Positions 15,544-64,000 of a stretch of 64,000 nt of DNA are shown here, piece after piece. Position 1 is the stretch's first letter. Every line of letters starts with the position of its first letter. Under the pieces are notes generated by a model. It was not told the DNA's origin. It was given only the letters and a program-made list of their open reading frames with translations, and did no database searches. Location: contig NZ_CP163520.1 in NCBI RefSeq assembly GCF_041080675.1, positions 8,027,501 to 8,091,500 on the forward strand, in the 5' to 3' direction. The stretch comes from Streptomyces sp. cg36. Its GTDB lineage: Bacteria > Actinomycetota > Actinomycetes > Streptomycetales > Streptomycetaceae. The position numbers were made by a program, and so were the translations under genes.

Positions 15544-15734
15544 GGGGCGATACCGATCGGTGGAGGCGGTGTGGCCCGGATGCCCGTCCGATCGACCGAC
15601 TCCTGGGAGCTCACATCGCGGCGAGAGTGGGGGTGGCCGCTCCAGAGGTGAAGGAGAGCGGACATTACTTCCAGGATCGGCGCACGCTGGATCTGTGCAC
15701 ACAGGGGTCTGCGCGCCGGGGCAGGACGGTTTCC

Positions 15735-16124: not shown

Positions 16125-16145
16125 GGCTGGGGGAGTGTCGGGAAG

Positions 16146-16201
16146 ACGCAAGGGCTGAGTCCAGGTGCCCGGGCCCGGGCACCTGGACTCAGCCCTTGCG
16201 T
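16146..16201. terminator. 56-bp perfect palindrome, bidirectional terminator
   Basis: Two 28-base arms (16146-16173 and 16174-16201) are exact reverse complements with no spacer, centred on GCCCGGG/CCCGGGC. It separates convergent genes and also encodes the last codons and stop of the DsbA-like gene on the minus strand. There is no T-tract. Confidence 0.8.
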
Positions 16202-17043
16202 GTCTGCTCCGTGCTGGTGACGAGCGCCTTGAAGTCGGTGTCGCTGATGGCGGTTCGGGGGCCCGAGACGAGATTGAGGAGATGACCGTCCAGGAAGACG
16301 GCCGGAGTGCCGGGGCTGCCCGGAAGTTTCGCCTGCTTCCATGCGGTGCTGAGCTGCTTGCCGTTGGCCTCGTCGGTGCCTGCGGCCCAGGGCAGGTAGG
16401 TCCCGTCGTTGACGGCCTTGCGCATCAGGGACTGGTCGAGGCCGGGGACCTCGGCCGCGATGGCGAGGAGCTTGCTGGTGTGGGAGAAGTCGTCGTGCGT
16501 CTCCTCCGGCTGTTGCCGATAGAGCGCGGCGTGGAGCGCCATGAACTTCTGGGTGCCCTGGTCGAGTGCCTCACCTAGCGCGTTGAGCGCTTGGTGGGAG
16601 CCGCTGCCACCGAGGTTGTTGTCGAGGAACGTGGCGATGTGGTAATTGATCTTGTACTTGCCCTCGTCGGCGAGCTGCTGGATCGTCGTGCCCAACGCGC
16701 GTTCGACGATGCCGCAGAACGGGCACCGCGGATCTTCGTAGATGTCGAGGTCGTGACGGGCGGCCGGATCGCCGTAGGTGATGACACTTCCGCCCGTGCC
16801 CGATGCGTGCCGCGGGACGACCAAGGGCCCCTGGTACGCCGCGCCGCTGTCCCTCTTCGCCCGGGAGGACAAGACTCCCAGGAACACACAGGCGATCACG
16901 GCGAGAGTGCCCAGGACGGCGCAGACCGCCATCAGCTGACGCTTCCCACGACGCCTCCTGTCCCGCGCCGCCCGCAGGCGTTCCCGCCCGTTGCTTCCGT
17001 GCGGAGGGTCGACTGCTCTCTTTCTGCGTGGCAGACGCCGCAT
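16189..17043 (-). CDS. Membrane-anchored DsbA-like thioredoxin-fold protein
   Basis: A 284-residue protein. A very basic N-terminal region (residues 1-38) is followed by one membrane helix (about 39-60, LMAVCAVLGTLAVIACVFLG) and an extracytoplasmic thioredoxin-fold domain. The redox motif is CPFC in YEDPRCPFCGIVE near residue 110, and the cis-Pro region is GTPAVFLDG near 250. The inserted helical domain (about 140-230) is DsbA/DsbG-like. It likely oxidises or isomerises disulfides of exported proteins, a role that suits the secreted proteases next door. The ATG at 17043 is chosen because AAAGGA precedes it. Its 3' end lies inside a 56-bp palindrome. Confidence 0.88.
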   Translation of the reverse strand: MRRLPRRKRAVDPPHGSNGRERLRAARDRRRRGKRQLMAVCAVLGTLAVIACVFLGVLSSRAKRDSGAAYQGPLVVPRHASGTGGSVITYGDPAARHDLDIYEDPRCPFCGIVERALGTTIQQLADEGKYKINYHIATFLDNNLGGSGSHQALNALGEALDQGTQKFMALHAALYRQQPEETHDDFSHTSKLLAIAAEVPGLDQSLMRKAVNDGTYLPWAAGTDEANGKQLSTAWKQAKLPGSPGTPAVFLDGHLLNLVSGPRTAISDTDFKALVTSTEQTRKG

Positions 17044-17455
17044 GTCCCGTCCTTTCGTCGACACCGGGACGATGGCTCGTCCGGCCGTCAGGGCCCTTCG
17101 TGAGCCACTTCAGGGCCACGGTGCGCCGAGTCCGGTGGGATGGGGTGTCCGCCGACGGGTGGATGCGGCGGATGGCTGGAGTGTGCTGCCCGGCGTCGGC
17201 TGCGGACGCGCGAAGGCCGCGTCGCCCCGCGCCCAGCCTCCCCATCAGCCGACGGGGTAGGTACGGGCCGCCAGGGCCCGCGCATCTGGGGAGGGGCAGG
17301 CGAAGTACTGCGGGACGAGCGGGCCAGGGCGACCGGATGGGGTATTTCCGCCGTCGATGCGGCGCGCGCGGTTGAACATGCTCCTGCTCATCAGGCTCTT
17401 CTGAGTCGTCAGCCGCGAGCCGGTGGAGCTCGTGGGTGCTACGGAAGGCCATTGG
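17044..17455. other. Intergenic region with divergent promoters
   Basis: 412 bases between the DsbA-like gene and the divergent metalloprotease. It should hold both promoters. Frames here are high-GC artefacts rich in Arg and Pro, and I see no clear operator. Confidence 0.5.
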
Positions 17456-49992: not shown

Positions 49993-50481
49993 ATGGACGA
50001 AGGACTGGCAGAGCTTCTCTACCGCGTGGTCATGCTGATGGGCGAGGCGGCCAGGCGCCGCGCCGACCCCGACCAGCGCCTCTCCCACAGCCAACTGCGG
50101 TTGCTGGGAACCCTTGAGGAGATCCAGCCCGCCACACAGCACCAGCTCGCCGAGGCCCTGGCCCTGTCCGACCCCGCCATCAGCCGCGCCCTGCGCCCAC
50201 TGGAAGCGGAGGGGTATGTGACGATCGCCGTCGACCCCGCCCATCGGCGCCGACGCCTGGTCTCCCTCACGCCAATGGGCCAGGACACCTTCCTGGCCGA
50301 GGGCAAGCCGCTGGAGGAGGAGCTCCGCACCGCCCTCGTGCAGGCCGGTTTCCCGTACGAGCGCTACCTCGCGGACACCTACCGGCTCGCCGAACTGCTG
50401 ACACCCGCGCAACCACGGCGCGCGACCACGACCCGGCGGCCGGACGACACACCGGAACCGGATGGGGCGGGACCGGTATGA
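49993..50481 (+). CDS. MarR-family transcriptional regulator
   Basis: A 162-residue winged-helix regulator. The recognition region reads LSHSQLRLLGTLEEIQPATQ, then HQLAEALALSDPAISRALRP near residues 31-75. The wing is YVTIAVDPAHRRRRLVSLT near 82-100, with the DxRxRR/L pattern of MarR proteins. The C-terminal helices (105-140) would form the dimer interface. It is divergent from a four-helix membrane protein, and a 28-bp palindrome lies between them, so negative autoregulation and control of the membrane protein are likely. The ligand is unknown. The Thr/Pro-rich C-terminus is beyond the fold. Confidence 0.9.
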   Translation: MDEGLAELLYRVVMLMGEAARRRADPDQRLSHSQLRLLGTLEEIQPATQHQLAEALALSDPAISRALRPLEAEGYVTIAVDPAHRRRRLVSLTPMGQDTFLAEGKPLEEELRTALVQAGFPYERYLADTYRLAELLTPAQPRRATTTRRPDDTPEPDGAGPV

Positions 50482-50651
50482 GTCAGGGGTGCTCCAGCGC
50501 GAAGTCGCCACGCGCCTGGCACCACCCGACTCACCTGGGCTGCCGGTCGGTGCTCTGCCCCCGACTCGGCAACCTACAGCCGCTTGCGCCGCGCATGAGC
50601 GTGTCCATGTGAGGGCGCACTCATGCGCGGCGGTTGCCCGTACCGGGGCGG

Positions 50652-51131
50652 TCAGTAACCGGAGTTGACGTTGTCGATGGAACCGTAGGTGTGAGCGGCG
50701 TAGTTGCAGGCCGCGGTGATGTTGGCCACGGGTTCGAAGATGTCCCACGCCGTTCCGGCGATGTGGTACCTGCGGAACGTGGGATCGATGATCTGGAGCA
50801 GCCCCTTGGAGGGGGTGCCGGCGCGGGCGTTGGAGTCCCAGTTGTTGACGGCCCTGGGGTTGCCTCCCGACTCGCGTTTGATGTTGCGCAGGATGCCGGC
50901 GTAGGACCCGGGGATGTGCTTGGACCTCATGATGGTCAGCGCATTGCCGATCCACCGGTCCATGACGCGGGAGGACACCTGCGGTGTGATTGCGGGATGG
51001 GGGGCAGCGGCGGCCGGGGGAGCGGTGTTCAGGGTGAGTGTCGCCGTCGTGACGATGGCGACGACACCGGCTGCGGACATCGCACGCAGACGGGCAGGCA
51101 GGCAGGTCAGGGCAGGTGTGAACGCAGACAT
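50652..51131 (-). CDS. Secreted transglycosylase (SLT domain)
   Basis: A 159-residue exported lysozyme-like protein. A signal peptide (about residues 1-40, with MSAAGVVAIVTTATLTLNTA and ending PAAAA) precedes the SLT domain. The catalytic Glu sits in NIKRESGGNPRAVNNWDSNA near residue 80, followed by GLLQIIDPTFRRY (the GLMQI box) and an ending with NITAACNYAAHTYGS, typical of Streptomyces transglycosylases. It should cleave peptidoglycan glycan strands. The ATG at 51131 opens the signal peptide, with GAAGG upstream. Its long leader contains a repeated CTCAAGAGG-TTG motif. Confidence 0.88.
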   Translation of the reverse strand: MSAFTPALTCLPARLRAMSAAGVVAIVTTATLTLNTAPPAAAAPHPAITPQVSSRVMDRWIGNALTIMRSKHIPGSYAGILRNIKRESGGNPRAVNNWDSNARAGTPSKGLLQIIDPTFRRYHIAGTAWDIFEPVANITAACNYAAHTYGSIDNVNSGY

Positions 51132-51716
51132 GATGGGGGCCTTCCAGCACGAGGTGGGTGAACAGCGGCCTCGACTCAAACCTCTTGAGATGCAAGGAGG
51201 TTGGTCCAGAGAAACCGTGTGTGCACATGGTGGGCAACCCTGAAGGTGGTCTGCAAGGGCGCACGCACTGTCGTGCTCCGTAGCAACCCTCTTGAGGGGG
51301 AGGGAAGTTTCAGGAGGGGTGGAGGTGTATCCCTGCTGTCGCGAGCCGTGGGTGTTCCCCGCCGTATGCGGTGCTTCACATCGTCGGTGATGTGTTCATG
51401 GGATACGTCACGATCGCAACATGCTTGTGGCGGAATGGGGTTGGGAGGTCGGTCAGGTTGTTCCGTCCGCCGACGCACACCCTCGGTTTGCGCTCACACG
51501 TAGGTTCGTTGGGGGGTGTCGGAGCGGTTGGAGGCGCGGTGATTCTCGATCGGACCGCTGTAGGTGTGGTGGCTGAGCCTGTCCCTGCCCGCAGATCGGC
51601 TGACTGCGAGGGTGGATGCCGGAGGGGATCGTCGCGGTCCCCTCCGGCCCAGGCCGGCGTTTCTCTGCAGGGCCTCGAAGGTTGACGCGCGCGGAAGACA
51701 CCGATTTGCTGGCCCG
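51132..51716. other. Long leader/intergenic region
   Basis: 585 bases between the divergent transglycosylase and GNAT genes. A 13-nt repeat, CAAMCCTCTTGAG on the plus strand, occurs at 51177-51189 and 51284-51296. I looked for a c-di-AMP riboswitch, common before such genes, and could not align one. No gene was recognised. Confidence 0.4.
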
Positions 51717-52163
51717 ATGAACGACCTTCGTGTTCAAACGGTGGACGACGACGCCTCGATCCGCGATTGGCAGTACGTCCACAACGTGATCATCCCCGGC
51801 GATGAACTGTCACTCGACGACGTCCGGACCCGCACTGGCCGCAACCTCATGGAGGTCGTCTACGTCGGCGACGCCCTGGTCGGCTGCACCACCGTCCGCC
51901 CACCCACCATGGACAACGGCGCCACCGCAACGGTCATCGTCCGGGTCCTGCCCGAACACCGCCGCCGCGGCCTCGGCGCTCGACTTTACGAGCGCGCCCT
52001 GGGCCAGGCCCGCGCGCTGGACGCCGAGGTGATCGAGACCGTGGTGCTGGCGTCCAACCCGGACGGGCTGCGCTTCGCCGAACGGCATGGGTTCATCGAG
52101 CTCGAACGCTATCTGCTGCGCGAGGGCGATACCGTGCCGTGGATCGATCTGCGTCTGAGCTGA
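51717..52163 (+). CDS. GNAT family N-acetyltransferase
   Basis: A 148-residue single-domain GNAT protein. It has VIVRVLPEHRRRGLGARLYE near residues 74-93, carrying the acetyl-CoA pyrophosphate-binding R/Q-x-x-G-x-G motif. VLASNPDGLRFAERHGFIEL near 105-125 is the usual final part. It would acetylate a small amine or protein. The ATG at 51717 begins the domain (LRVQTVDDDASIRDW). Upstream in-frame codons are Arg-rich and unlike the family. It stands alone between the transglycosylase and a peptidase inhibitor-like gene. Confidence 0.88.
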   Translation: MNDLRVQTVDDDASIRDWQYVHNVIIPGDELSLDDVRTRTGRNLMEVVYVGDALVGCTTVRPPTMDNGATATVIVRVLPEHRRRGLGARLYERALGQARALDAEVIETVVLASNPDGLRFAERHGFIELERYLLREGDTVPWIDLRLS

Positions 52164-52465
52164 CCCGCGAGACACAGCCCCACTTCCAGCGGGTACTACC
52201 AAACACCTGGCGCGCGTGGTGGACATCCGCTTCGCGCGACTGCGACTGGGCTGTTCCGTCGGTGCCCGCTGGAACACCGTCGACCGGAACAGCGTCCCCG
52301 GGACCTCGGCGATGACGAGCTCCTGGTCGCTCGCCTTGCCTCGCCTTGTGTCAGTGGCTGGGATGTTCCGTGAAGTCCGTGTCGCGTCGACACAGGGCAG
52401 GCATCCTGTCTGCGGGCTGATGGGTCCAGTTTCCCGGCGTGTACGGCCACACGGAAGGGCGTCAG

Positions 52466-52876
52466 ATGAACAGGGCTTCCCAGACACTCGCCACCGGCAT
52501 GCTGACCGCTGTCCTTCTGTCGGGCGGTGCAGCCGCGGCGGACCAGCAGACGCCCGCGGGACCGCACGCGTGGTCGGACTGTCCGCGGGCCACCTGGTGC
52601 ATGTGGGACGGAGACAACGCCGTCGGCGACATCTACAGCGACTCCAACGAGCCCAAGTACAACCCGGACCTCACGGAGTACGGATGGAACGACCGGGCCA
52701 ACTCCGTCGTGAACAATTCCACTCGGAACATCTGCGTCTACTGGGACAAGAACTACGGCGGCAATTACGTGCGCATCGCAGCCGGGGGCAAGGTGAACCT
52801 CCCGGTCTCCTGGCGCAACCGCGTGAGTTCGTACCGCCAACTACCTTCCGGTGTCAGTAGTTGCGTGTACGACTGA
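52466..52876 (+). CDS. Secreted I36-family peptidase inhibitor-like protein
   Basis: A 136-residue exported protein. A signal peptide (residues 1-25, ending AAAAD) precedes a beta-rich domain with CPRATWCMWDGDNAVGDIYS near 39-58, NNSTRNICVYWDKNYGGNYV near 82-101 and WRNRVSSYR near 116. The paired cysteines and crystallin-like beta repeats fit the I36 (streptomycete metalloproteinase inhibitor, SMPI-like) family. GAAGGG precedes the ATG. If active it would inhibit extracellular metalloproteases, and two such proteases are encoded 30-35 kb away, though a link is only a guess. Confidence 0.8.
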   Translation: MNRASQTLATGMLTAVLLSGGAAAADQQTPAGPHAWSDCPRATWCMWDGDNAVGDIYSDSNEPKYNPDLTEYGWNDRANSVVNNSTRNICVYWDKNYGGNYVRIAAGGKVNLPVSWRNRVSSYRQLPSGVSSCVYD

Positions 52877-52979
52877 TGTGAGGGCACGCACGCTCCAAAG
52901 GTGGCGCGGCGCTGCCTGTTCTTCAGGCGACCACGCCTGGCTCGCGCCGGAGCCGCCCCTGACCCGCGCTGCCGTCACG

Positions 52980-53146
52980 GCTCACAGAACCTCTCAGAGC
53001 GCCTTCCGTCGGCTGCCCGCAGCTGCGAGCGGCGGGCCCTTGTCGTCGATGCCTTCTTCGATCCCGCCGACGCGATCATCGTCGTGCCCAGCCTGATCCG
53101 GCAGGCTCGGCGCAACAGTGGCCCCGGCGGCCCGCGCTCTGCGTAG
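52980..53146 (+). pseudogene. Probable transposase C-terminal remnant
   Basis: One frame encodes ERRALVVDAFFDPADAIIVV followed by PSLIRQARR and a stop at 53144-53146. From memory this resembles the tail of some Streptomyces IS5-type transposases (pattern VIDAFFDLADAIIxVRSLIRxA). The preceding sequence does not contain the rest of a transposase. It could also be chance; confidence is moderate. Confidence 0.4.
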
Positions 53147-53393
53147 CCGGGTTCTGATCCGCCCTCCCCGCTGGTACGCCCCGTCCACGCCGCACAGGAC
53201 CAATGCGTCCTGCACGGCAGAGGACACAGGTATGTGCGCCGCCCCGGATGCGCCGTGCATCCACGCCCTGCGGCGGCAAGCCGTCCCCCGGCCAGCGCCC
53301 GGCCCCTCGTCGGCACCTCTGCGTCGCGTTCCGCAGCAGCAATCACGGGCAGGGCCCGAAGTGGACCCAGGTCTTGCTCTTCTGGACCCCCGT

Positions 53394-53425
53394 CGGAGCG
53401 TATTGTCCGCGGACAATACGCTCCG
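53394..53425. promoter_or_regulatory. 32-bp perfect palindrome upstream of the lanthipeptide precursor
   Basis: Two 16-base arms (53394-53409 and 53410-53425) are exact reverse complements with no spacer. The inner part is TATTGTCCG/CGGACAATA. It lies about 190 bases before the precursor start and looks like a repressor operator, for instance of TetR type. A terminator for an upstream unit is the alternative. Confidence 0.6.
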
Positions 53426-53475
53426 CTCACCGGGACTCCACCTCGCTGACCTCGTACTTCCTCTCCACTTCCATG

Positions 53476-53513
53476 CGGACAACTCGTCCTCCATACCGGA
53501 CAACTGATCCTCC
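53476..53513 (+). repeat. Two 17-nt direct repeats with 21-bp period
   Basis: CGGACAACTCGTCCTCC (53476-53492) and CGGACAACTGATCCTCC (53497-53513) differ at two positions and start 21 bases apart, which is two helical turns. Their CGGACAA half-site also forms the arms of the palindrome at 53394. This suggests activator or repressor binding at the cluster promoter. Confidence 0.6.
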
Positions 53514-53572
53514 GTTACAAGATCGGTCGCGGCGTCGCAGACCGGGGCGCCCCATCCGATCGGCCGGAATTC

Positions 53573-53604
53573 AGAGACCGCAAGCAGAAGAGACCGCAAG
53601 CAGA
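53573..53604 (+). repeat. Perfect 16-bp tandem duplication before the precursor RBS
   Basis: AGAGACCGCAAGCAGA occurs twice without a gap, at 53573-53588 and 53589-53604. The second copy runs directly into the GAGG ribosome binding site of the precursor gene. Confidence 0.85.
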
Positions 53605-53616
53605 GAGGTGAATGAC

Positions 53617-53826
53617 ATGACGCTGGAACTGCTGGACAGGGCAGCCGTGGAGGAGAGCTTCGACATCGAGGTCGACTTCTCCGGCCTGGAGCGGGTCGAG
53701 GCGCCCGAACTCGGCGGGAGCACGGGGATCGCCTGCGCCAACACGGTGCCGTGCTGTGTGTCGCAGTCTCCGACGAGCTGTGGCCAGACGTACGGGCGCG
53801 GCGTGTCGATGTGTCCGACCTGCTGA
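53617..53826 (+). CDS. Class I lanthipeptide-type precursor peptide (LanA-like)
   Basis: A 69-residue peptide directly upstream of an exporter, LanB and LanC. The leader (residues 1-34, MTLELLDRAAVEESFDIEVD, then FSGLERVEAPELGG) is acidic and contains FDIE at 15-18, a variant of the FNLD-type box that LanB and LanC recognise. It ends in Gly-Gly. The core (35-69) starts STGIACANTVPCC and has six cysteines (40, 46, 47, 55, 66, 69) and ten Ser/Thr residues, suited to several (methyl)lanthionine rings. GAGAGG lies 8 bases before the ATG. A GTG at 53608 is a less likely start. I did not recognise the core as that of a known lanthipeptide. The cleavage site is inferred. Confidence 0.85.
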   Translation: MTLELLDRAAVEESFDIEVDFSGLERVEAPELGGSTGIACANTVPCCVSQSPTSCGQTYGRGVSMCPTC

Positions 53827-53964
53827 GCGCACTGCCGTGAGCGGTGACTAGCGGGCCGGGTGCCGGACGGGGAGACGACCGTCCGGCACCCGGGCCGGGC
53901 CGCATACCGGGCCGCGGGAACGCGCGGCCGTACACCGGTGGACTTCTCTCGTGGGCGGGTGAGC

Positions 53965-56004
53965 ATGCAACGCATTGGCAGGGGCGGACGGCGCGGGTCC
54001 GGGGCCGGCGACGAACAGTGCGGGGACGGGTCCGCGAGCGAGCGGGAGCTGTTCGGGTCCCGGCTGCGGCTGGACGGTGGCTACACCGCCCACGAACTGG
54101 CCGGAGCGCACGCGCGCACCTTCTCCGTGCTCGCGGGGCTGCCCTCGTTCCTGCGGGCGTCGGCCGTGCTGGCCTGGGAGGCCGGGCGCGGCCGGGCCGC
54201 TGCCCTGGCCGTCGTCGAGGTGACCCGTGGCGGCATCGCGGCGCTGGGGCTGGTGGCCGCCAACGCCCTGCTGATGCGGCTGTTCGCGGGCGGTGACGTG
54301 GGGGACCGGCTGAGAGAGGCGCTGCCCTCGATGGGGTGGCTGCTCGCGATGGCCGCGCTCACGACCGCTTTGGCCGCCGCCTCGACGACGCTGTCGGGCG
54401 GCCTGGAGCCCCAGGTCGAGCGCCGGGCGATGCTCCGGTTGCTGCGCCGGACCGCGCGGGTGGAACTCGCGGCCATGGAGTCGGGCGACTTCCAGCGGCT
54501 GCTGCACTCCGCGCAGCGCGGCACGGTGGCCGCGCGGCAGATGACCAAGAACAGCCTCCAGGTCCTGCACGCCCTGGTGGTGTTCGCCTCCGCCGCCGTG
54601 GTGCTGACCGCCCTGCACCCCGTACTGCTCCCGCTGCTGCTGGCCGCCGCGCTGCCCAAGGGGTGGGGAGCGGCCCGTTCGGCCCGGCGTTCCTACCGCT
54701 CCACCCAGACGTGGCTGGAGCAGGCCCGCCGCAACCAAGTGCTCGCGCACCTGCTGCTCGACCGGGCGAGCGCCCCGGAGCTGCGGGTGCACGGGGCGGC
54801 GGAGTACCTGGTGGAGTCCTTCGACCGCATGTCGCGAGAGGCGGCCGGGGAGCAGGCCCGCCTGTCCCGGGCCGCCGCGGCCACCACGGCGCTGGCGAGC
54901 GCGTGCGCCGGGCTCGCGGCGGCCGGGGTGTACGGGCTCTTGGTCCTCATGGTGATGGGGGACTGGATCCCGCTGGCGGCGGCCGGGACCGCCGCGATCG
55001 CGGTCCGCACGGCCACCGCGCAACTGGACTCGCTCGTCCAGCAGGTCAATTTCATCTACGAACAGGCCCTTTTCTACGCGGACTTGGAGACGGCCTGCCG
55101 TACCGCCGACGAGCGTCGGATGCCCCAGGGCGGTCAGCCGGTACGGGCGGCGCCCGCGGTCATCAGTCTCAGCGAGGTGTCCTTCCGTTACGCGGGCGTG
55201 GCCGCGCCGGCCCTGGACGGGGTGTCCCTGGAGATCACCAAGGGGCAGATCGTGGCGCTGGTCGGGCCGAACGGGGCGGGCAAGACGACGCTGTCCCGGC
55301 TGCTGTGCGGGCTGTACACCCCCGAGCGTGGCAGCGTCCGCTGGGACGGCCGTGATCTGCGCTCCCTGCGCCGCGCCGACATCCACGAACGGATCGCCCT
55401 GGTCTCGCAGACCTTCACCCAGTGGCCGTTCACCGCCCGTACCAACATCGCCATCGGGCGCCCGCGGGCCCGTACCGACACCGCGCGGCTGGTGCGCGCC
55501 GCGGCCGACAGCGGGTTCGCGGACGTCGTCGAGCGGCTGCCGCAGGGCTGGGAGACGCTGCTGGCCCCCGAGTTCGTCGGCGGTGTCGAGTTGTCCGGCG
55601 GCCAGTGGCAGCGCGTGGCCCTGGCGCGCGCCGCCTTCCGCGACGCCGACATCCTCGTCTACGACGAACCGACCGCCGCCCTGGACCCCCAAACCGAGAT
55701 CGAGTTCTTCGACCGCATCCGTGAGCTCGCCTGTGGCGGGCAGACCGTCGTCCTGGTCACCCACCGGCTGGCGTCCGTGCGCCACGCCGACCAGATTTTC
55801 TTCCTCGACCAGGGGCGGCTGGCCGAATCCGGATCGTTCACCGAACTGCTGGAGCGCGAGGGCCGGTTCGCCCGGCTGTACCGGATGCAGGCGGAGCAGT
55901 ACGCCGCCGTGCCCCGCTCCCGGGCCGACACAGCCGTGTCACCCGCGGACAGCGCACCCGCATCAGCCCAGGAATCCCAGAAGGAAGGGAACCGTGTTGC
56001 CTGA
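53965..56004 (+). CDS. ABC transporter, fused permease and ATPase (lanthipeptide exporter)
   Basis: A half-transporter of 679 residues if started at ATG 53965 (a GTG at 53860 would give 714). The membrane domain spans about residues 60-370 with six helices. The ATPase domain starts near 395 and has Walker A GPNGAGKTT near 435, the signature ELSGGQWQRVALARA near 542, Walker B DILVYDEPTAALD near 561 and VTHRLAS as the H-loop. There is no N-terminal C39 peptidase domain, so unlike class II LanT it cannot remove the leader. It probably exports the modified peptide as a homodimer. Its last 11 bases overlap the LanB gene, which indicates translational coupling. Confidence 0.9.
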   Translation: MQRIGRGGRRGSGAGDEQCGDGSASERELFGSRLRLDGGYTAHELAGAHARTFSVLAGLPSFLRASAVLAWEAGRGRAAALAVVEVTRGGIAALGLVAANALLMRLFAGGDVGDRLREALPSMGWLLAMAALTTALAAASTTLSGGLEPQVERRAMLRLLRRTARVELAAMESGDFQRLLHSAQRGTVAARQMTKNSLQVLHALVVFASAAVVLTALHPVLLPLLLAAALPKGWGAARSARRSYRSTQTWLEQARRNQVLAHLLLDRASAPELRVHGAAEYLVESFDRMSREAAGEQARLSRAAAATTALASACAGLAAAGVYGLLVLMVMGDWIPLAAAGTAAIAVRTATAQLDSLVQQVNFIYEQALFYADLETACRTADERRMPQGGQPVRAAPAVISLSEVSFRYAGVAAPALDGVSLEITKGQIVALVGPNGAGKTTLSRLLCGLYTPERGSVRWDGRDLRSLRRADIHERIALVSQTFTQWPFTARTNIAIGRPRARTDTARLVRAAADSGFADVVERLPQGWETLLAPEFVGGVELSGGQWQRVALARAAFRDADILVYDEPTAALDPQTEIEFFDRIRELACGGQTVVLVTHRLASVRHADQIFFLDQGRLAESGSFTELLEREGRFARLYRMQAEQYAAVPRSRADTAVSPADSAPASAQESQKEGNRVA

Positions 56005-59000
56005 GCCCGTCTTTCGTGGCCTGCCGGACCTGTTGATCCGGCTCGCCGTCGCCCCCGCGTCCGCCGCGGAGCCGGTCTCCGCCGCGCCACCGTCGGCGTC
56101 CCGCGCGGACCGTGACGCCCAGCTGCGCCGACTGCTCGCCGATCCGGTGCTGCGCGAGGCGATCGAGGTGTCCAGCGGCTCGCTGACGCACACGCTGGAG
56201 CGGCTGGAGCGCGGCGAGGCCCTCGACGACCGCGCGCTGGAGCGGGCCCTGCATTCCGCGACCCGGTATCTCCTGCGGATGGCCCAGCGCCCCACCCCGT
56301 TCGGCCTGCAAGCCGGAGTGGCGGCGGCCACGCCAGGTGAGCGGGCGTGTTTCCGGCTCGGCGGGGCGCACCGCAAAGGGGTGTGGCCCGACGCCGAGTG
56401 GGCCGCCCGGGTGGCCGACGCCCGTCTGAAGGACCCCTCGGCACGCGGCACGGTACGGGTCATCACCAGCAACCTGTGCACCGAGCGCGGCGCCCGGCTC
56501 GTCCTGCCGAGCACCCGCACGCCCGGCGAGCGCGGCACCGATCTCGCCACCGGCGAGATCGCCGTCGCCCGCAGCAAGCTCACCGACCATCTGCTGCGCA
56601 CCGCCCGCGCGCCGATCACTCTCGCGGAACTCGTGGACGACGCCACCCGCCGTTTCCCGCAGGCCCCGGCCGGTGCCCTCGACCGTGCCGTCGACACCCT
56701 GGTCGCCGAGGGCTTCCTGCTGTGCGACGGCCGCCCGCGCCAACACGACACCGCGGACGCCGTGGCCGCCCTCGCACCAGAGGCGGCCACATGCCTGCGG
56801 GCCTATGCCGATGCGCCGTTGGGCACGGGGCAGCAGGCGTGGCGGGCCGCCGTGGGCGCGCTGGACGCCATCGCGCCGCACGGCACCCGCCAGCCCCTCC
56901 ACGTCGTCCTGGCCATGGACGCCGAGGTGACCGTGCCCGCCGAGGTCGTGGCCGAGGCCGAGCGCGCGGCGACCGCGCTGTGGCGGATGGCGCCCCAAAC
57001 GCGCGGCCCCCTGCATCTGACGCAGTATCACAAGGAGTTCCTGGAGCGGTACGGAGCCGAGCGGCTCGTCCCCGTACAGGAACTGCTCGACCCGGTGACC
57101 GGCCTCGGCGCTCCGGCCGGGTATCTGCTGCCGCCTTCCGCACGATCCGACGTCGAGGTGCGGTCCGCACGCGAGCGCGACGACCTGCTGGGCGACCTGG
57201 TCTCGCGGGCCTTCCACGCGGGCCGGGACGAGATCGTCCTGGACGAGGAGACCGTGGCCGCCCTCTCCTTCGACGACATCCACAGCCGCCCGCCCGCCCT
57301 CGACCTGTTCGGCCAACTCCACGCCGCCGACTGCGACGCGCTCTCCGACGGGGACTTCACCCTGGTCCTCGGACCCGCCTGCGGCTCCCACAGCGCCGGG
57401 GCCATCTCGGGGCGGTTCTGGGAGGTGACGGGAAGCGGCCCGGTCGTGCGTCCGGTGCTGGGTTCGCGGGCCGGCCGCGAGGAGCCGGTGGCGGCGCGGC
57501 TCGTCTTCCGGCCCGTGCTGCCCCGATCGGCCAACATCTCCCGGGTCCCGCTGCCGGGCCTGCCCAAGATCGTGGTCGGGGAGTTCGACGACACCGCCGA
57601 TCCCACCGGGTCCGAGTCGATACCCCTCGACGACCTGGCCGTACGCGCGAGCTTCGAGGGCTTCCAGCTGCTGCGCCGCTCCAGCGGCCAGCAGATCGCC
57701 GTCGTCGTGCCGCACGCACTCGACCTGTCCACCTCGGCCCCCAACATCGCCCGGTTCCTGGCCGAGTCGCAGCACGTGGGTCTGCACGCCTGGACCCCGT
57801 GGTACTGGGGCCGTCTGGAGGTCCTGCCCCATCTGCCACGGGTCCGCTACGGCAGGAGCGTCCTCAACCCGGCGCGCTGGCGTCCCACCCCGCAGCTCGC
57901 CGACGCGGCCCAGGAGCCGGCCCGCTGGCCCGCCGCCCTGGACGAGTGGCGGTGCGCCTTCCGCGTACCCGAACACGTCCTGGTCGCCGTCTCCGACAAA
58001 CGCCTCGACGTGGACCTCACCCACCACCTGCACCGCGAACTGTTCCGCCACGAACTGGCGCGCCGCCCGGACCTGGCGGTGTTCGAGTCGGTGGGCGACC
58101 GGCACAACCGGTTCGGCTGGTCCGCAGGTCACGCCAACGAGATCGTGTTCCCCCTGGTGCCCCGCGCCGACGGGCCCGTACCCAGCCCGGCGCCCCGCAT
58201 CGCGGCACGGCCCCGGCACGACAGGCCCACCCACCACATCGGGGGCGCCTGGCTGTCCGCGAAACTCCTCACCCCGCCGCCCGAGCACGAGCACCTCCTC
58301 ACCCGTGAACTGCCCGTCCTGCTGGGCGAGTTGGACGAGTCGGTCAGAAGCTGGCACTTCGTGCGGTACGCCGACCCGGAACCGCACCTCAGACTCCGCG
58401 TCGAGGCACGCGAGGGCGCGGGATCCACCGATCTGCTGCCCGCCTTCCACGACTGGACCCGCCGCCTGTACGCGGAGGGGCTCATCCGTGACGCATCCCT
58501 GCACACCTTCGCCCCCGAAGCCGAACGGTACGGCGGCGACCAGGCCCTGGCGAGCGCCCTGGAGGTGTTCCACACCGACAGCGTGGTCGTCGTCACCCAG
58601 CTCCAGCACACGGTTCGCGGACGGCTGCGCACGGCACGCGAAGTGCTGGCCGCCGCCACCTGCGCCGACCTCCTCAAGGCCGCACTCGGCGGCTCATGGG
58701 CCGACTGGGCGCTGAACCGGCTCACCTGGCCGGCGACCGCGACCGTACGCCCCTACCGCCGCGAGGCCATGGCGCTCATCGACCCGGACGCCACCACCGG
58801 CACCTGGCCCGACCATCCCGGTCTGCAAGGGCTGCGCGACGCCTGGGCGCACCGGGCGGCGGCGATGGCCGCCCACGCGCGGGCCATCGACGAGACCGGG
58901 CCGGGCACAGCCGTGCGCGACCGCGCGCTCAGCGGCGTCCTGCACATGCATGTGAACCGCGCCCTGGGCCTGACCCGGGAGGGGGAGAGCCTGACCTACG

Positions 59001-59092
59001 CCGTACTGCGCGACAGCATCCGCTCGCACCGCGCCCGGACGAACCACCTCCGCACGGACCGTATCGGCCACCAGAGGAGGGCCGGGGCATGA
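55994..59092 (+). CDS. Full-length class I lanthipeptide dehydratase (LanB)
   Basis: A 1032-residue protein with both LanB parts. The glutamylation domain (about 1-740) opens with FRGLPDLLIRLAVAP and contains RTPTPFGL-like QRPTPFGLQAGVAAATPG near residue 97 and QYHKEFLERYG near 345. The C-terminal elimination domain (SpaB_C, thiopeptide-type biosynthesis domain; about 755-1010) starts WLSAKLLTPPPEHEHLLTRE and has SWHFVRYADPEPHLRLRVEA. It would use glutamyl-tRNA to glutamylate core Ser/Thr and then form Dha/Dhb. GTG 55994 has GGAAGGGA upstream and overlaps the exporter by 11 bases. Its end overlaps lanC by 4 (ATGA). Confidence 0.92.
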   Translation: MLPEPVFRGLPDLLIRLAVAPASAAEPVSAAPPSASRADRDAQLRRLLADPVLREAIEVSSGSLTHTLERLERGEALDDRALERALHSATRYLLRMAQRPTPFGLQAGVAAATPGERACFRLGGAHRKGVWPDAEWAARVADARLKDPSARGTVRVITSNLCTERGARLVLPSTRTPGERGTDLATGEIAVARSKLTDHLLRTARAPITLAELVDDATRRFPQAPAGALDRAVDTLVAEGFLLCDGRPRQHDTADAVAALAPEAATCLRAYADAPLGTGQQAWRAAVGALDAIAPHGTRQPLHVVLAMDAEVTVPAEVVAEAERAATALWRMAPQTRGPLHLTQYHKEFLERYGAERLVPVQELLDPVTGLGAPAGYLLPPSARSDVEVRSARERDDLLGDLVSRAFHAGRDEIVLDEETVAALSFDDIHSRPPALDLFGQLHAADCDALSDGDFTLVLGPACGSHSAGAISGRFWEVTGSGPVVRPVLGSRAGREEPVAARLVFRPVLPRSANISRVPLPGLPKIVVGEFDDTADPTGSESIPLDDLAVRASFEGFQLLRRSSGQQIAVVVPHALDLSTSAPNIARFLAESQHVGLHAWTPWYWGRLEVLPHLPRVRYGRSVLNPARWRPTPQLADAAQEPARWPAALDEWRCAFRVPEHVLVAVSDKRLDVDLTHHLHRELFRHELARRPDLAVFESVGDRHNRFGWSAGHANEIVFPLVPRADGPVPSPAPRIAARPRHDRPTHHIGGAWLSAKLLTPPPEHEHLLTRELPVLLGELDESVRSWHFVRYADPEPHLRLRVEAREGAGSTDLLPAFHDWTRRLYAEGLIRDASLHTFAPEAERYGGDQALASALEVFHTDSVVVVTQLQHTVRGRLRTAREVLAAATCADLLKAALGGSWADWALNRLTWPATATVRPYRREAMALIDPDATTGTWPDHPGLQGLRDAWAHRAAAMAAHARAIDETGPGTAVRDRALSGVLHMHVNRALGLTREGESLTYAVLRDSIRSHRARTNHLRTDRIGHQRRAGA

Positions 59093-60432
59093 CGACCGCG
59101 ACCCGCGCGGCCCAGGAAGTCCAGGACATCGCTCAGCGGCTGCGCGACCCCGACCACGTGCGGGCGGTCATGGCCGCGCAGGACGCCGCGACACCCCCGC
59201 CCGGCGGCGAACCGGTCGCCACCTGGAGCCCCACCTCCCTGGCCTCCGGCTACCCCGCGCTCGCCCTCTTCTACGGCGAACTGGCACGCCACGACTCCGC
59301 CTACCGGGGCACCACCCACCGCTACCTGGGCCTCGCGGTCGACGCGCTGCGCAGGGCACCGCACCACAACGGCCTCTACAGCGGCTTCGGCGCGGTGGCC
59401 TTCGCCGCCGAATGCGCCGCCCACGGCACCTCCGACTACACGTCCCTGCGCGGCACACTGCGTACGAGCCTGGGCTCGGCCGCCCGCACGGCCCTGGCCC
59501 GGGAGACGCGCCGCCTGGACGACGGCGTTCCCGCCGACGGCTTCCGCGCGTGGGATCTCATCACCGGCCTGACCGGACTGGGCTGCTGCCTGCTGACCCA
59601 GGGGGACCCGGACACCGAGGCCCTGCACGGAGTGCTCACGGCTCTGGTGCGGCTGACCGATCCGCTGGTCGTCGACGGCACACCCTTCCCCGGCTGGTGG
59701 GTCACCTCCCAGCCCTCGTCCGTGCCGCAGCCCGCCTTCCGCGGCGGTCACGCCAACCTCGGCCTGGCCCACGGCATCCTCGGTCCGCTCGCCCTGCTCA
59801 GCCTCGCCTGGGAGCAGGGGCATCGCGTAGCGCGGCAGGAGGAGGCGGTCCACACGGTGATGGAGTTCTTCGCGCAGGCGGAGGAGCGGGACGAGGAAGG
59901 ACCGTACTGGCCGCGCTGTCTGCCCCGCACCCGCTTCACCGCCTCCGCCGCCGGGCCGCCGACTGTTGCCACCACCGCTTCCCCGCTGCCCGGCCCGTCC
60001 TGGTGCTACGGCACCCCCAGCCTCGCCCACACCTTCCACCTCGCGGCCCGCGCCTTCGCCCGCCCCGACTGGTCCGCGCGGGCAGGCGAGGCGCTGCGCG
60101 CGATGCTGCGGCGCCCGCACGAGGCGGGCGCGGTCATCGAACCGGGGCTGTGCCACGGCTGGTCCGGAATCGAGCACGTCATGCGCTGCCTGCACACCCA
60201 TAGCCCCGACCCGGAGGTGGCCGAGGCGGCCAACGCTGCCGGGGCGTGTCTCCGGGCCGCCCGCGATCCCGAAGCGCCGTTCCTCTACCCCGTCCCCAAC
60301 CCCCGCCTGGGCCGCAGCTACCACCTGCCCGGCTTCCTGGGCGGCACCGCCGGAATCGGCCTGGCCCTGCTGGCCGGCGAGAACGCGCAGCGCGCCCACA
60401 CGCCGTGGCAACGGGCGCTGCTGCTGGGGTGA
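59089..60432 (+). CDS. Lanthipeptide cyclase (LanC-like)
   Basis: A 447-residue alpha-toroid cyclase. The zinc site is complete: Cys306 in SWCYGTPSLA and Cys355-His356 in GLCHGWSGI. The upstream repeat GGHANLGLAHGILGPLALLS near residue 220 and the late GFLGGTAGIGLALL near 420 are LanC marks. It should catalyse addition of core cysteines to dehydrated Ser/Thr to form thioether rings. The start overlaps the LanB stop as ATGA, so it is co-translated. It is the last gene of the unit; the next genes are convergent. Length is close to that of NisC/SpaC-type proteins. Confidence 0.93.
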   Translation: MTTATRAAQEVQDIAQRLRDPDHVRAVMAAQDAATPPPGGEPVATWSPTSLASGYPALALFYGELARHDSAYRGTTHRYLGLAVDALRRAPHHNGLYSGFGAVAFAAECAAHGTSDYTSLRGTLRTSLGSAARTALARETRRLDDGVPADGFRAWDLITGLTGLGCCLLTQGDPDTEALHGVLTALVRLTDPLVVDGTPFPGWWVTSQPSSVPQPAFRGGHANLGLAHGILGPLALLSLAWEQGHRVARQEEAVHTVMEFFAQAEERDEEGPYWPRCLPRTRFTASAAGPPTVATTASPLPGPSWCYGTPSLAHTFHLAARAFARPDWSARAGEALRAMLRRPHEAGAVIEPGLCHGWSGIEHVMRCLHTHSPDPEVAEAANAAGACLRAARDPEAPFLYPVPNPRLGRSYHLPGFLGGTAGIGLALLAGENAQRAHTPWQRALLLG

Positions 60433-60647
60433 GTGGCGCCGGCGCATGCCCGGCCGCTCTCGCCCGGAGAGTGCGGGCGGTTCATTCCGTCGACGGCGTC
60501 GGTGAGGACCGCCTTGAAGCGCTGCGGCTCGTTGTCGCGGGTGACCTGTTCGCCCTCCCCCGTACGTACTGGCCACAGCGTTCCCCGGCGGACAGTGAAG
60601 TGCATCGGCGCCGGAGGCAACAGTGCCTTCCACGCCAACAACGGTGG

Positions 60648-61574
60648 TCATCCCGTCCACCCGGTGTGGTGCAGCCAGTCCTCAAAGGTCATCAGGCCGG
60701 GGTGCAGGCGGCGCAGGAGGTTGATGTCCCGGTCTCGGGCGTAGAGGTCACGGTCGGCGAAGAACTGGAACATCGCCGCGTAGTCGTGGCTGAAGTCGGG
60801 GACGACTGCGTGCAGATCGGCGTGCGGCATCGGGACGTAGGTGCTCGGGGTGCCCGTGACCCGGGTGAACGTGGCGGCGATCTCGTTGCCGGTGAGGCTG
60901 TCGCCGATCACCGCGAGGTCGCGGGCGCCCCAGGACTGCCAGTTGTCGAACATGTGGCCCGCGAACCAGGCGATGTCGTCGAGCGCTACGAGCGGGTAGC
61001 GGGCGGCGCCGAGTGGGAGCCGGAAGGCCAGGCCGCCCCGGCCGTCCGGCTGGGGGGTGAGCCGGTGCCGCAGGTTCTCGAAGTAGGGCGCCGTGGTCAG
61101 TACCGAGACGTGGTGCGTGTACCAGCCGTCGGCCTCCTTGCGGAGCATCTCCTCGGACCGCATCAGGTTGATGTGGGCGGTGACGGCGGCTTTGCTGTCG
61201 AAGTGGGGGACGGGGCGGCCGGTCAGGGACACCGCGCTGTCCAGCGAGGACCAGAGGAAACGCTCCACCCCGGCCTGCTCCGCCGCGGCCAGCAACTCCA
61301 GCCCTTGGCGGTACTCGCCCACGGCGCTGCCCGTCGCGAAGAAGTCGGTGTTGGCGAACACGCTGTCCGCCTGCCCGAGGAGGACCGGGAGGGTCGCCGG
61401 GTCGGAGCGGACCACTCGCACGCGGCCGGGTGCGGTGGCGGCGAGTTCGGTGGCGTGGGCGGACTCCGGGTGGCGGGTGGGGACGGTGATGGTGGCGTCG
61501 GTGGTGGCCAGGAGGTGGTGGATCACGTGGCGGCCCATGGCTCCGGTGCCGCCGACGACGAGGACGCGGGTCAT
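60648..61574 (-). CDS. NmrA-like NAD(P)-binding protein
   Basis: A 308-residue atypical SDR of the NmrA group. The glycine-rich motif VLVVGGTGAMGRHVIHHLL is at residues 4-22 and the basic segment TRHPES near 33 favours NADP. YFENLRHRLTPQPDG near 163 and LVALDDIAWFAGHM near 195 fit NmrA/HSCARG sensors or reductases; the classical YxxxK is absent. The start overlaps the stop of the deacetylase gene by 4 bases (ATGA), so the two are translationally coupled. It converges with lanC but belongs to a different unit. Confidence 0.85.
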   Translation of the reverse strand: MTRVLVVGGTGAMGRHVIHHLLATTDATITVPTRHPESAHATELAATAPGRVRVVRSDPATLPVLLGQADSVFANTDFFATGSAVGEYRQGLELLAAAEQAGVERFLWSSLDSAVSLTGRPVPHFDSKAAVTAHINLMRSEEMLRKEADGWYTHHVSVLTTAPYFENLRHRLTPQPDGRGGLAFRLPLGAARYPLVALDDIAWFAGHMFDNWQSWGARDLAVIGDSLTGNEIAATFTRVTGTPSTYVPMPHADLHAVVPDFSHDYAAMFQFFADRDLYARDRDINLLRRLHPGLMTFEDWLHHTGWTG

Positions 61575-62395
61575 GACGTTGTTCCTTGGTGGGTGAGGAC
61601 GTGTTCGGCCACCTGGGCGTGGGTGGCGACCCAGACGTCGTCGGACGCACGGATGTGGTCGAGGATCTGGCTGGCCATGCCCGCGAGGAGCGGTCGGCCC
61701 CCGACGTGGGCATGAAGGGTCAGGTGGAAGACGCCGGGGCCGGGGGCGGCGAGCAGCTGGTCCAGCAGCTCTCGGTGCAGGTCGCGGTAGACGTACGGGC
61801 CGGCTGCGGTGTCGCGTACGTCGGAGTGGTCGCTGTGCATGAGGGAGACCAGGGGACCGTGAGCGGTGGGCAGGACCTGCGGGAGGTCGTGGTCGCTGTG
61901 GTCGCCGCTCCAGCGGTATCCGGCCTCGGCGAGCAGCTCGGCGGTGCGCCGGGAGCCGGTGGCGCGCGGGCTCAGCCACCCCGTGGGTCGCACGCCCGTG
62001 ACCTGGTGAAGGACGTCGGTGCAGCGATGGATATTGGTCCGCTCGGCCTCGATGTCGAGCGACGCGGGCACCACGTCCTGGGCCCAGGAGTGCGCGGCGA
62101 TCTCGTGGCCGGCCTCGTGCGCGGCCCGGACGGCCGCGGGGTGCCGCTCGGCCACCAGTCCGCTGACGCCGACGGTGGCGGGCAGGTCACCGAGGACGTC
62201 GAGCAGTCGCCAGATGCCGGTGGTGACGCCGTAGTTGGCCCAGGAGGTGCTGTGCGTGTCGTCGTCGCCGGGCAGTGGCCACGCCGCGGCCATCGGCGCG
62301 TAGGCGGGCCAACGGCCCGGTGACCACAGCTCCAACGCGACGGTGACCAGCGCGACGACCTTGTGTCCGCCGGGCCATTGAATCTCTGCTCTCAT
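61571..62395 (-). CDS. Polysaccharide deacetylase/PuuE-like protein
   Basis: A 274-residue NodB-homology protein. The metal-binding His pair is in AAHEAGHEIAAHSWAQDVVP near residues 90-109. TGWLSPRATGSRRTAELLAE near 135 carries the conserved Arg loop, and VFHLTLHAHVGGRP near 235 the last His. The first NodB Asp motif (TFDDG) is replaced by VTVALELWSPGRW, as in allantoinase/PuuE-type members that act on amides rather than chitin. ATG 62395 has AGGGG at 6 bases, and ATG 62401 sits too close to it. It is first in an operon with the NmrA gene and divergent from an HxlR regulator. Confidence 0.85.
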   Translation of the reverse strand: MRAEIQWPGGHKVVALVTVALELWSPGRWPAYAPMAAAWPLPGDDDTHSTSWANYGVTTGIWRLLDVLGDLPATVGVSGLVAERHPAAVRAAHEAGHEIAAHSWAQDVVPASLDIEAERTNIHRCTDVLHQVTGVRPTGWLSPRATGSRRTAELLAEAGYRWSGDHSDHDLPQVLPTAHGPLVSLMHSDHSDVRDTAAGPYVYRDLHRELLDQLLAAPGPGVFHLTLHAHVGGRPLLAGMASQILDHIRASDDVWVATHAQVAEHVLTHQGTTS

Positions 62396-62438
62396 GTGCA
62401 TCCCCTGATCGGTGGCTTTCGCCGTGACGCTAATGAGG

Positions 62439-62464
62439 CGCCAGTTACCTGGAGGTTCCTGGCG
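62439..62464. promoter_or_regulatory. Possible HxlR operator
   Basis: CGCCAG (62439-62444) and CTGGCG (62459-62464) form a 6-bp inverted repeat with a 14-base spacer in the 87-base gap between the divergent deacetylase and HxlR starts. Confidence 0.35.
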
Positions 62465-62482
62465 GCGGGCTACCGTCGGGGG

Positions 62483-62839
62483 ATGCGTGCGTACTCCGGA
62501 AGCGTCTTCCTCGCCGACTGCCCGGCCCGGCTGGCGATCGAGATCATCGCTGACAAGTGGGCCGTGGTGGTGCTGTTCGCCCTGAGCCGACAACCGTGCA
62601 GACACGGCGAGTTGGTGGATCTGATCGGCGGAATCTCGCGGAAGGTGCTGACCCAGACGCTGCGGCGGTTGCAGGGGTACGGCCTGGTCGACCGCCACGC
62701 CGGGGCCGGGAAGGCCGAGTACGTGCTGACCGACTTGGGCCGGACGCTGGTGGAGCCGATCGCCGTGCTGACGGAGTGGGCTCACGTGCACGGTGCGGCC
62801 GTGGTGGAATTCCAGGAGTCCGAAGCGGACCCGGTTTAG
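62483..62839 (+). CDS. HxlR-family transcriptional regulator
   Basis: A 118-residue winged-helix protein. The family Cys appears in FLADCPARLAIEIIADKWAV near residues 9-28. The helix-turn-helix is HGELVDLIGGISRKVLTQTL followed by RRLQGYGLVDR near 41-71, and the wing carries KAEYVLTDLGRTL. HxlR proteins respond to electrophiles or redox changes and act mostly as local repressors. It is divergent from the deacetylase-NmrA operon, which is the probable target. The ATG at 62483 opens the domain, and an upstream ATG at 62363 would overlap the deacetylase gene. Confidence 0.9.
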   Translation: MRAYSGSVFLADCPARLAIEIIADKWAVVVLFALSRQPCRHGELVDLIGGISRKVLTQTLRRLQGYGLVDRHAGAGKAEYVLTDLGRTLVEPIAVLTEWAHVHGAAVVEFQESEADPV

Positions 62840-62943
62840 CGTCCACGGACCCTGGGGCTCGATGCCCGGTCCGCCCGGGGCCCTGGCCCGGCGCACGGAG
62901 CTGCGGTGGGCCTCGGCCAGAGCGGAGGCCGGGGTTGCCCGTG

Positions 62944-63867
62944 CTACCGCGCTGACGTGTGTGCCGCGCGCTCAGGGCGAATGCGCTGGCTGAGGAAGAG
63001 GGCGGCGCGGTCCAGTGCCTCGTCCGCCTCGTCCAGGATGCCGGCGAACGACTGGAACACGTGCGGCACGTCGGCGGTGATGTCCAGAATGACGTCCACC
63101 CCGGCCGCCCTCGCACGGGTGGCGAGGCGCGTGGAGTCGTCCAGCAGGATCTCGTTCGTGCCCGCCTGGATCAGCAGTGGCGGGAAGCCGGTCAGGTCGG
63201 CGAGGACAGCCGGGCTGAGCAGGGGCTGGTGGGGGTCGGCCCCGGCGAGGTACATGGCCCCGGTACGTTCAAGGGCTGCGCGGGTGAAGATCGGGTCGAT
63301 GCCCTCCTTGGTGTGCATGCTCTCGCCCGTGCGGGTGGCGTCGAGGCCGGGGGAGAACGCCACGACGGCCGCGGGCAGGGGCAGCTCCGCGTCCCGGGCG
63401 GCGAGGCAGGTGGTGATGGTGAGGCCGCCACCGGCGGAGTCTCCGGCGAACGCGATGGTCGACGGGTCGGTGCCGCTGTCGAGGAGGTTGCGATACGCGC
63501 TCAGGGTGTCGTCGAGTGCGGCCGGGAAGGGGTGCTCGGGGGCCAGCCGGTAGTCGAGCGAGTACGACTGGAAGCCGGTCCTGGCCACGAGATGTCCCGT
63601 GAGCGACAGGGCGGTCTCGGGGGAGCCGAACACGAAGCCGCCGCCGTGGAAGTACAGGATCGTCCCGGCTCGGGGAGTGTCGTTCGGTTCGACATGCAGG
63701 GCGGGCCGGTCGCCGAGCGTCGTCTGCGTGGTGCGGATGGTGTCGGGCACGCTCATCTGGGCCATCAGCGCCGCGAATCCGGTGCGGAGCTCCTCGACGG
63801 ACCGGGGGCCTTCGGGCCGCGGCTGCCGCATCATGGCGTCGATCCGGGCGCGCTGTTCCTTGCTCAT
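62944..63867 (-). CDS. Alpha/beta hydrolase, hormone-sensitive lipase (HSL) family
   Basis: A 307-residue esterase. The HSL motif HGGGFVFG lies near residue 74 (oxyanion hole), the nucleophile elbow AFAGDSAGGGLTI near 145, the acid in LIQAGTNEILLDDS near 238 and the His in ADVPHVFQSF near 272. Members hydrolyse short acyl esters or lactones. AGGAG lies 8 bases before the ATG at 63867; the ORF extends further upstream but only through the divergent promoter. It is divergent from a MarR gene with 43 bases between them and is its likely target. Confidence 0.92.
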   Translation of the reverse strand: MSKEQRARIDAMMRQPRPEGPRSVEELRTGFAALMAQMSVPDTIRTTQTTLGDRPALHVEPNDTPRAGTILYFHGGGFVFGSPETALSLTGHLVARTGFQSYSLDYRLAPEHPFPAALDDTLSAYRNLLDSGTDPSTIAFAGDSAGGGLTITTCLAARDAELPLPAAVVAFSPGLDATRTGESMHTKEGIDPIFTRAALERTGAMYLAGADPHQPLLSPAVLADLTGFPPLLIQAGTNEILLDDSTRLATRARAAGVDVILDITADVPHVFQSFAGILDEADEALDRAALFLSQRIRPERAAHTSAR

Positions 63868-63903
63868 GGGTGCACTCCTGCCGTAGGTAGCTTCCCGTAC
63901 ACT

Positions 63904-63915
63904 ATATGCCGTGGC
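63904..63915. promoter_or_regulatory. Likely MarR operator overlapping the marR start
   Basis: ATGCC-GT-GGCAT (about 63906-63917) is a perfect 5-bp inverted repeat around two bases, set within TATA...TCTA and overlapping the GTG start of the regulator, in the 43-base divergent gap. Confidence 0.5.
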
Positions 63916-64000
63916 ATCTAAATTGAGCAGTGAGACCGTCGACCTCCCTGGATTCTTCGCCGACTTGGTCAGGTGCGAGACGCGTCTGTACAACGCGCTC
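63911..64000 (+). CDS. MarR-like regulator, 5' part
   Basis: The first 30 codons of a gene that runs off the window, starting with GTG at 63911: VASKLSSETVDLPGFFADLV followed by RCETRLYNAL. The helix RCETRLYNAL is the first dimer helix of many MarR proteins. There is no clear ribosome binding site, and the start falls inside a small palindrome, so translation may be leaderless. The divergent HSL-type esterase is the likely target. The family call rests on this short part and on context. Confidence 0.5.
   Translation, partial: MASKLSSETVDLPGFFADLVRCETRLYNAL

Follow-up and report, generated by a model that had tools for sequence, protein, structure and literature searches.

A four-gene class I lanthipeptide cluster with a rare, strictly conserved core peptide in Streptomyces sp. 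cg36

A run of four genes within a 64,000-nucleotide stretch of the Streptomyces sp. cg36 genome (the window) raises the question of whether the locus directs the synthesis of a class I lanthipeptide and whether its Cys-rich core belongs to any described compound. We consider it highly probable (about 0.9) that this is a functional class I lanthipeptide cluster. It is ordinary in kind, an actinobacterial class I lanthipeptide cluster, with a small and rare core family whose core is strictly conserved. On the sequence comparisons made here, the core appears to match no described compound that we found and to be common to a handful of relatives. The window covers positions 8,027,501-8,091,500 of an 8.60-Mb contig in a genome of 9.02 Mb, and the cluster (Table 1) ends 508 kb from the end of this contig.

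Table 1. Features of the lanthipeptide cluster and its control region (positions in the window)
Feature	Position	Strand	Remarks
Perfect 32-bp palindrome, core TTGTCCGCGGACAA at 53403-53416	53394-53425	.	Probable operator
Two GGACAA half-sites, 21 bp apart (53477, 53498)	53477-53503	+	Same spacing in S. melanogenes
lanA-type precursor, 69 aa	ATG 53617 to stop 53826	+	GAGAGG upstream; FDIEV leader box, residues 15-19
Stable RNA hairpin directly 3' of precursor stop	53852-53897	+	Fold compared with shuffles
lanT-type ABC exporter, single chain	53965-56004	+	Pfam ABC_tran, 110.8 bits
Full-length lanB dehydratase with glutamylation and elimination domains (1032 aa if begun at GTG 55994; TTG 55997 may be the start)	to 59092	+	Pfam, structure alignments
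lanC cyclase, 447 aa, WCYG and CHG motifs	59089-60432	+	Pfam LANC_like, 147 bits

The genes are arranged co-directionally in the order precursor, ABC exporter, LanB and LanC, and all four frames are intact; this layout, proposed in the first-pass annotation, is borne out by the ORF coordinates and the Pfam domains. LanB has the full length of a class I dehydratase (PF04738 plus PF14028), with Lant_dehydr_N (1-649 of 649, 510 bits) and Lant_dehydr_C (1-253 of 255, 147 bits) on one chain. Its best solved relative is 5ehk (entry name 'Lantibiotic dehydratase'; residues 26-1019 aligned, E 7.6e-109), which we take to be the microbisporicin dehydratase MibB, and it also aligns with NisB (4wd9, E 1.4e-19). 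The stretches RPTPFG (first residue 99), MDAEV (308), SGRF (472), RYADPEPH (791), ERYGG (844) and HMHVNR (984) are presumably its glutamylation and elimination motifs. According to the portion of PMC9011353 covered, the NisB elimination site has a catalytic His and an Arg not present in the divergent SptBb. The ERYGG and HMHVNR stretches of LanB are consistent with a NisB-type elimination site. LanC aligns to 8byk and NisC and retains the metal-site motifs WCYG and CHG, which we assume to hold the zinc ligands. By these motifs, both LanB and LanC look like active enzymes. The adjacent precursor has a leader box of the F-x-[LI]-[DE] type and a Ser/Thr/Cys-rich core under selection. The NCBIfam name of the LanB C-terminal domain, 'thiopeptide-type bacteriocin biosynthesis protein', and a thiopeptide-like FDID-leader peptide in another genome of the genus (G204), which matched the precursor profile, would fit a thiopeptide or other non-lanthionine RiPP that employs a LanB, but the presence of a LanC with WCYG and CHG motifs and a conserved module without any other modification gene make such a product very improbable.

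A LanB scan of genome contigs yielded six loci, including one in S. melanogenes JCM 4398 (L002). The S. melanogenes locus has the same four genes, operator core, half-sites and hairpin as the window, sharing 83% amino acid identity in LanB, 81% in LanC and 88% in the ABC exporter, whereas its flanks are unrelated. The two precursors are identical at 69 of 69 residues. Their genes differ at 9 of 210 bases (stop codon counted), all of them third-position changes, with 9 silent and 0 replacement. The proportion of nonsynonymous differences (pN) is 0 for the precursor, compared with 0.065 for the exporter (659 codons), 0.094 for LanB and 0.107 for LanC; the corresponding dN values are 0 and 0.068-0.116, and pS is 0.177 for the precursor and 0.237-0.272 for the other three genes. 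An identical precursor beside diverged neighbours indicates that the precursor is a real gene under selection and not a chance frame. A core unchanged between two species whose other cluster proteins differ by 12-19% points to a defined, selected product. That the cluster is silent or in decay, or that the small ORF arose by chance, would accord with the lack of a known product and of a regulator inside the module, but this is scarcely credible given the four intact frames, the purely silent changes in the precursor and the conserved operator core and hairpin.

The comparison also defines the borders of the cluster and its gene junctions. Aligning window positions 50001-64000 with the S. melanogenes locus (23 kb) gives one block of homology (53403-60433, 86.1% identity over 7086 columns), which begins at the palindrome core and ends at the LanC stop. 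This restriction indicates that the cluster is a self-contained module, and the mismatched flanks indicate that the module moved or that its surroundings were replaced. No protease, immunity or regulator gene is present within the conserved four-gene module. Next to the cluster but outside the module, positions 52439-52876 encode a small protein bearing an I36 peptidase inhibitor domain. Two overlaps had been read from the window, of 4 and 11 bp. The 4-bp overlap of LanB with LanC holds and is kept in S. melanogenes. The overlap of the exporter with LanB is 11 bp from the GTG start and 8 bp from the TTG start; since S. melanogenes has GCG in place of the GTG and keeps the following TTG, the TTG is the likelier start by this comparison, and the overlap is likelier 8 bp than the 11 bp first given. 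Precursor and exporter do not overlap and are separated by a 138-bp gap containing a strong hairpin.

If cut after its Gly-Gly, the precursor would release a core of 35 aa (STGIACANTVPCCVSQSPTSCGQTYGRGVSMCPTC) with six Cys and ten Ser/Thr, a count that agrees with the earlier one. For a core cut at this site, and only for this site, the calculated [M+H]+ would run from 3361.38 with 6 dehydrations to 3289.34 with 10. A query of 5.8 billion proteins with the precursor returned one near-identical cluster entry, differing at one leader residue, with 2 member sequences and a 7.53-Mb contig. The peptide of Streptomyces sp. BR123, used as a query against the same proteins, retrieved itself and one relative of 82% identity, and a three-row precursor profile added one relative from Kitasatospora hibisci. 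The distant precursors, from Streptomyces sp. BR123 (P0003), Streptomyces sp. NPDC006314 (P0004) and K. hibisci (P0005), share 35-40% identity with the window precursor but have FDLD leaders and no Gly-Gly, and P0003 and P0004 have seven core Cys compared with six. The window core and these three have in common the ordered pattern C, T, C, S, PTxCGx[ST]YG, MC, C. In core numbering, S1, I4, C6, T9, C12, S15, P18, T19, C21, G22, Y25, G26, M31, C32 and C35 are invariant in the four-precursor alignment, and each of the four has a Ser or Thr as residue 24. Gene order was read for one of the three, the BR123 locus, where the order precursor, ABC exporter, LanB and LanC is retained (LanB 37% and LanC 35% identity to the window) and the cluster sits between peptide-transport-like operons. 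In one source the BR123 peptide is named 'FDLD family class I lanthipept...'.

Among 392 genomes of the genus, precursor matches were found in 5 at E ≤ 0.01 and in 3 at E ≤ 0.001, the latter being the own genome, G331 and G204. Besides the own genome, only G331 has a true precursor in this draw, and it is the same peptide as that of BR123. The match in G204 was dropped because its leader is of the FDID type and its core poly-Ser/Cys, that in G224 for want of a leader, and those in G089 and G320 for internal stops. The order (1 of 293) and family (1 of 394) draws gave the own genome only; as the draws overlap and evidently omit S. melanogenes and K. hibisci, these are counts and not frequencies.

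The unfamiliarity of the core, claimed in the first-pass annotation, is upheld by the near-absence of entries among the 5.8 billion proteins and by the family models. The precursor matched no Pfam or NCBIfam model at E up to 10, though above roughly 0.1 most matches are removed by the filters of HMMER. The FDLD model (NF038155, cut-off 20 bits) was not matched by the window precursor; P0003 scores 22.0 bits, above the cut-off, and P0004 19.7 bits, below it. The SCO0268 model (TIGR04451) also gave no match to the window precursor, with 134 bits for the control L095. The window precursor has no match to the gallidermin/nisin models (PF02052, TIGR03731); P0004 reaches 14.5 bits against PF02052, under the 21-bit cut-off. 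Nisin rings A and B span five and four residues, with no residue between them. The T2-C6 (five residues) and T9-V-P-C12 (four residues) spans of the window core equal these rings in size, and the best solved relative of its LanB is 5ehk, presumably MibB, so the product could be a disguised nisin- or planosporicin-type lipid II-binding lantibiotic whose N-terminal rings act like nisin rings A and B. This is quite unlikely, as the gallidermin/nisin models miss the window precursor while a planosporicin-like control (L091) reaches 36.6 bits with TIGR03731, C6 and T9 are separated by two residues compared with none in nisin, and S1, not T2, is kept in all four aligned precursors. Clusters of the planosporicin/microbisporicin type are likewise actinobacterial and class I with a full-length LanB, but their core is unrelated and the LanB of L091 is 31% identical to that of the window.

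Other class I types differ in gene content or core. Large actinobacterial class I families combine a methyltransferase with a core Asp (PMC7268733, portion covered). The window core has no Asp and the four-gene module no O-methyltransferase, setting it apart from the O-methyltransferase families (I 1-4, coi, olv); the coi and olv clusters share LanB and LanC with it but have an O-methyltransferase. The split LanB of the SapT type is also absent, as both domains lie on one chain. In the covered portion of PMC11672506, embleporicin is likewise an actinobacterial class I product with an acidic leader box (LDLD) and no -2 Pro cleavage signal, but it has a 26-residue core with four Cys and its cluster contains a P450 and further genes. 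No description of the core strings was found in the main texts searched; supplementary material, for example the precursor lists accompanying PMC7268733, may contain an unlabelled entry. The covered portions of the broader lanthipeptide and S. melanogenes literature contain no recognised description of the cluster, nor does that of the S. melanogenes YBS22 paper (PMC10745888). A near-identical core in a described lanthipeptide, which would have countered the claim of unfamiliarity, was not found in these papers and libraries. The locus offers chemists an intact, self-contained module of about 7 kb whose core has no counterpart described in the searched libraries and papers. It suits chemical study well but is not new as a kind of system, and the core merits expression.

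The comparative alignment narrows the possible rings. P0003, P0004 and P0005 have zero Ser/Thr after [ST]YG, yet two Cys lie there, which points to overlapping or nested thioether rings, or else to free Cys or a disulfide at the end of the peptide. Should LanC link every Cys to a dehydrated residue upstream of it, one C-terminal Cys would use residue 24 and the other would then reach back beyond Cys21, giving overlapping or nested rings. The window core also has S30 and T34, which could close small rings, so the argument for overlap rests on the relatives. Overlapping rings, suggested in the first-pass annotation, gain comparative support in this way, with the rings themselves remaining predictions. 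They also have a precedent in the coi product, which has two overlapping C-terminal methyllanthionine rings (PMC9486935, portion covered). The conserved S1, T9, S15, T19 and S/T24, taken with Cys 6, 12, 13 or 14, 21, 32 and 35, suggest five or six rings. We tentatively propose, at somewhat less than even odds, a new scaffold common to a five-member precursor family (window, S. melanogenes, BR123, NPDC006314 and K. hibisci) and directed at a target other than lipid II. It would have N-terminal rings closed by C6 and C12, followed either by a C-terminal knot, with large C32 and C35 rings overlapping or surrounding the PTxCG ring, or by a mixed thioether/disulfide ending (CPTC in the window core) in which the last two Cys are joined.

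Cleavage after Gly-Gly, as first assumed, finds no support. The Gly-Gly is not conserved in the three distant relatives, no C39 peptidase domain on the exporter is among the 13 Pfam matches (E up to 0.1), and NCBIfam TIGR01193 (peptide cleavage/export ABC) covers only the ATPase part of the exporter, so Gly-Gly is an assumed cleavage site. The leader is likely removed by a protease encoded outside the cluster. The SapT cluster also encodes no protease, and an outside protease has been suggested for it (PMC9011353, portion covered). This likeness, the lack of an immunity gene in the module and the core unchanged between two species would suit a SapT-like morphogenetic or signal peptide rather than an antibiotic. 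We regard that reading as rather doubtful, though not far-fetched, because the window core is polar with six Cys, whereas the SapT/SapB type is hydrophobic (same source, portion covered), and the window LanB is a single chain, not split.

From the observed genes, their conservation and the module borders, we infer a conventional class I route. The FDIEV box of the leader would bring the precursor to LanB, which would glutamylate Ser/Thr from glutamyl-tRNA and eliminate glutamate to give Dha/Dhb, and LanC would close (methyl)lanthionine rings by adding the thiols of Cys. The two C-terminal Cys may enter rings overlapping the Cys21 ring or form a mutual disulfide. The ABC protein would export the modified peptide and a protease encoded elsewhere would remove the leader. 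Expression is probably under TTGTCCGCGGACAA operator control, and the hairpin after lanA probably holds precursor mRNA above enzyme mRNA. The product is likely to act as an antibacterial or signalling peptide.

LanB and LanC proteins in themselves are common, with LanB matches in 30 of 61 relatives (E ≤ 0.001) and LanC matches in 59 of 150 genus genomes (E ≤ 1e-30). Plasmid records matching LanB number 73, all below 60% identity, and none of the 286 plasmid records with a DNA match covers 80% of the cluster; one such region was read and added nothing. Service to another precursor was not seen: the single genomic LanB (1 PF04738 match) lies beside the precursor, and this linkage is kept in S. 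melanogenes. The genome has 8 LANC_like matches. Five besides the cluster LanC score 66-151 bits (G000:C1 515178, 7169071, 644878, 1155619 and 467604) and, lying in frames of 923-1152 aa, are probably class II-IV synthetases.

For the LanB phylogeny, 41 loci gave 39 rows (the window, 37 loci and a second Asanoa LanB), after removal of L088, L089, L090 and L092, which lack a frame of 850-1700 aa with an alignment over 600 residues; the input excluded L007, L016 and L019. The window and S. melanogenes are paired (100/100) on a long branch within a supported 10-row clade that includes BR123, L097, L095 and others; with support of 83/39, the tree does not decide whether BR123 or the L095-type group stands nearer the window. 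Precursors in 18 stretches around LanC/LanB matches were chosen by a leader-motif pattern, by which others there may be missed. L095, which matches the SCO0268 family (TIGR04451), has its LanB in the clade of the window but three core Cys. L097 (G096), also in the clade, has a class I precursor near 7351 on the minus strand, ending CWVTADCCSTGGGSPSTLDPVSMCLLC; its core has a CC and a final VSMC..C with five Cys and is possibly a shortened cousin of the window core. Asanoa siamensis (L003; LanB 38% and ABC 44% identity) was rejected as a family member, as the core of its nearby Cys-rich peptide is unrelated. Within 10 kb (10001-19799), that locus carries two genes each for LanB and LanC, on opposite strands, and near 9724 on the minus strand it has a Cys-rich peptide with an FDLDL leader.

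The cluster start assigned in the first-pass annotation, 53394, is the first base of the perfect palindrome. Its 14-bp core is kept at the same place in S. melanogenes and its outer arms are not. The 9.02-Mb genome has 6 copies of TTGTCCNNGGACAA (G000:C1 579572, 1073164, 8080903, 8092603, 8380617 and 8423056), compared with 0 for the reversed control and 0.16 expected from composition; one lies 1.1 kb past the window end. Two sites are 11 and 14 bp upstream of the assumed ATG of paralogous proteins resembling DNA-binding regulators, and a third such paralog has a site 2.4 kb upstream; the remaining three sites, including that of the cluster, have no regulator-like neighbour. A 99-aa N-terminal piece of these paralogs matches no Pfam or NCBIfam model. 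From the position of the sites, our guess is that the paralogous family is the regulator binding the palindrome, and sites and paralogs are perhaps an undescribed regulator-operator set; no description of the palindrome was found in the literature searched. In the gap downstream of the precursor, the fold of the whole 141-nt stretch has a z of -3.8, a stability reached by 0 of 200 shuffles. S. melanogenes likewise has a stable hairpin at this position, as does BR123 with another sequence, both folded without a shuffle control. The hairpin is a probable attenuator or processing element. The only other perfect palindrome of at least 20 bp in the window is a loopless 56-bp inverted repeat at 16146-16201, possibly a bidirectional terminator.
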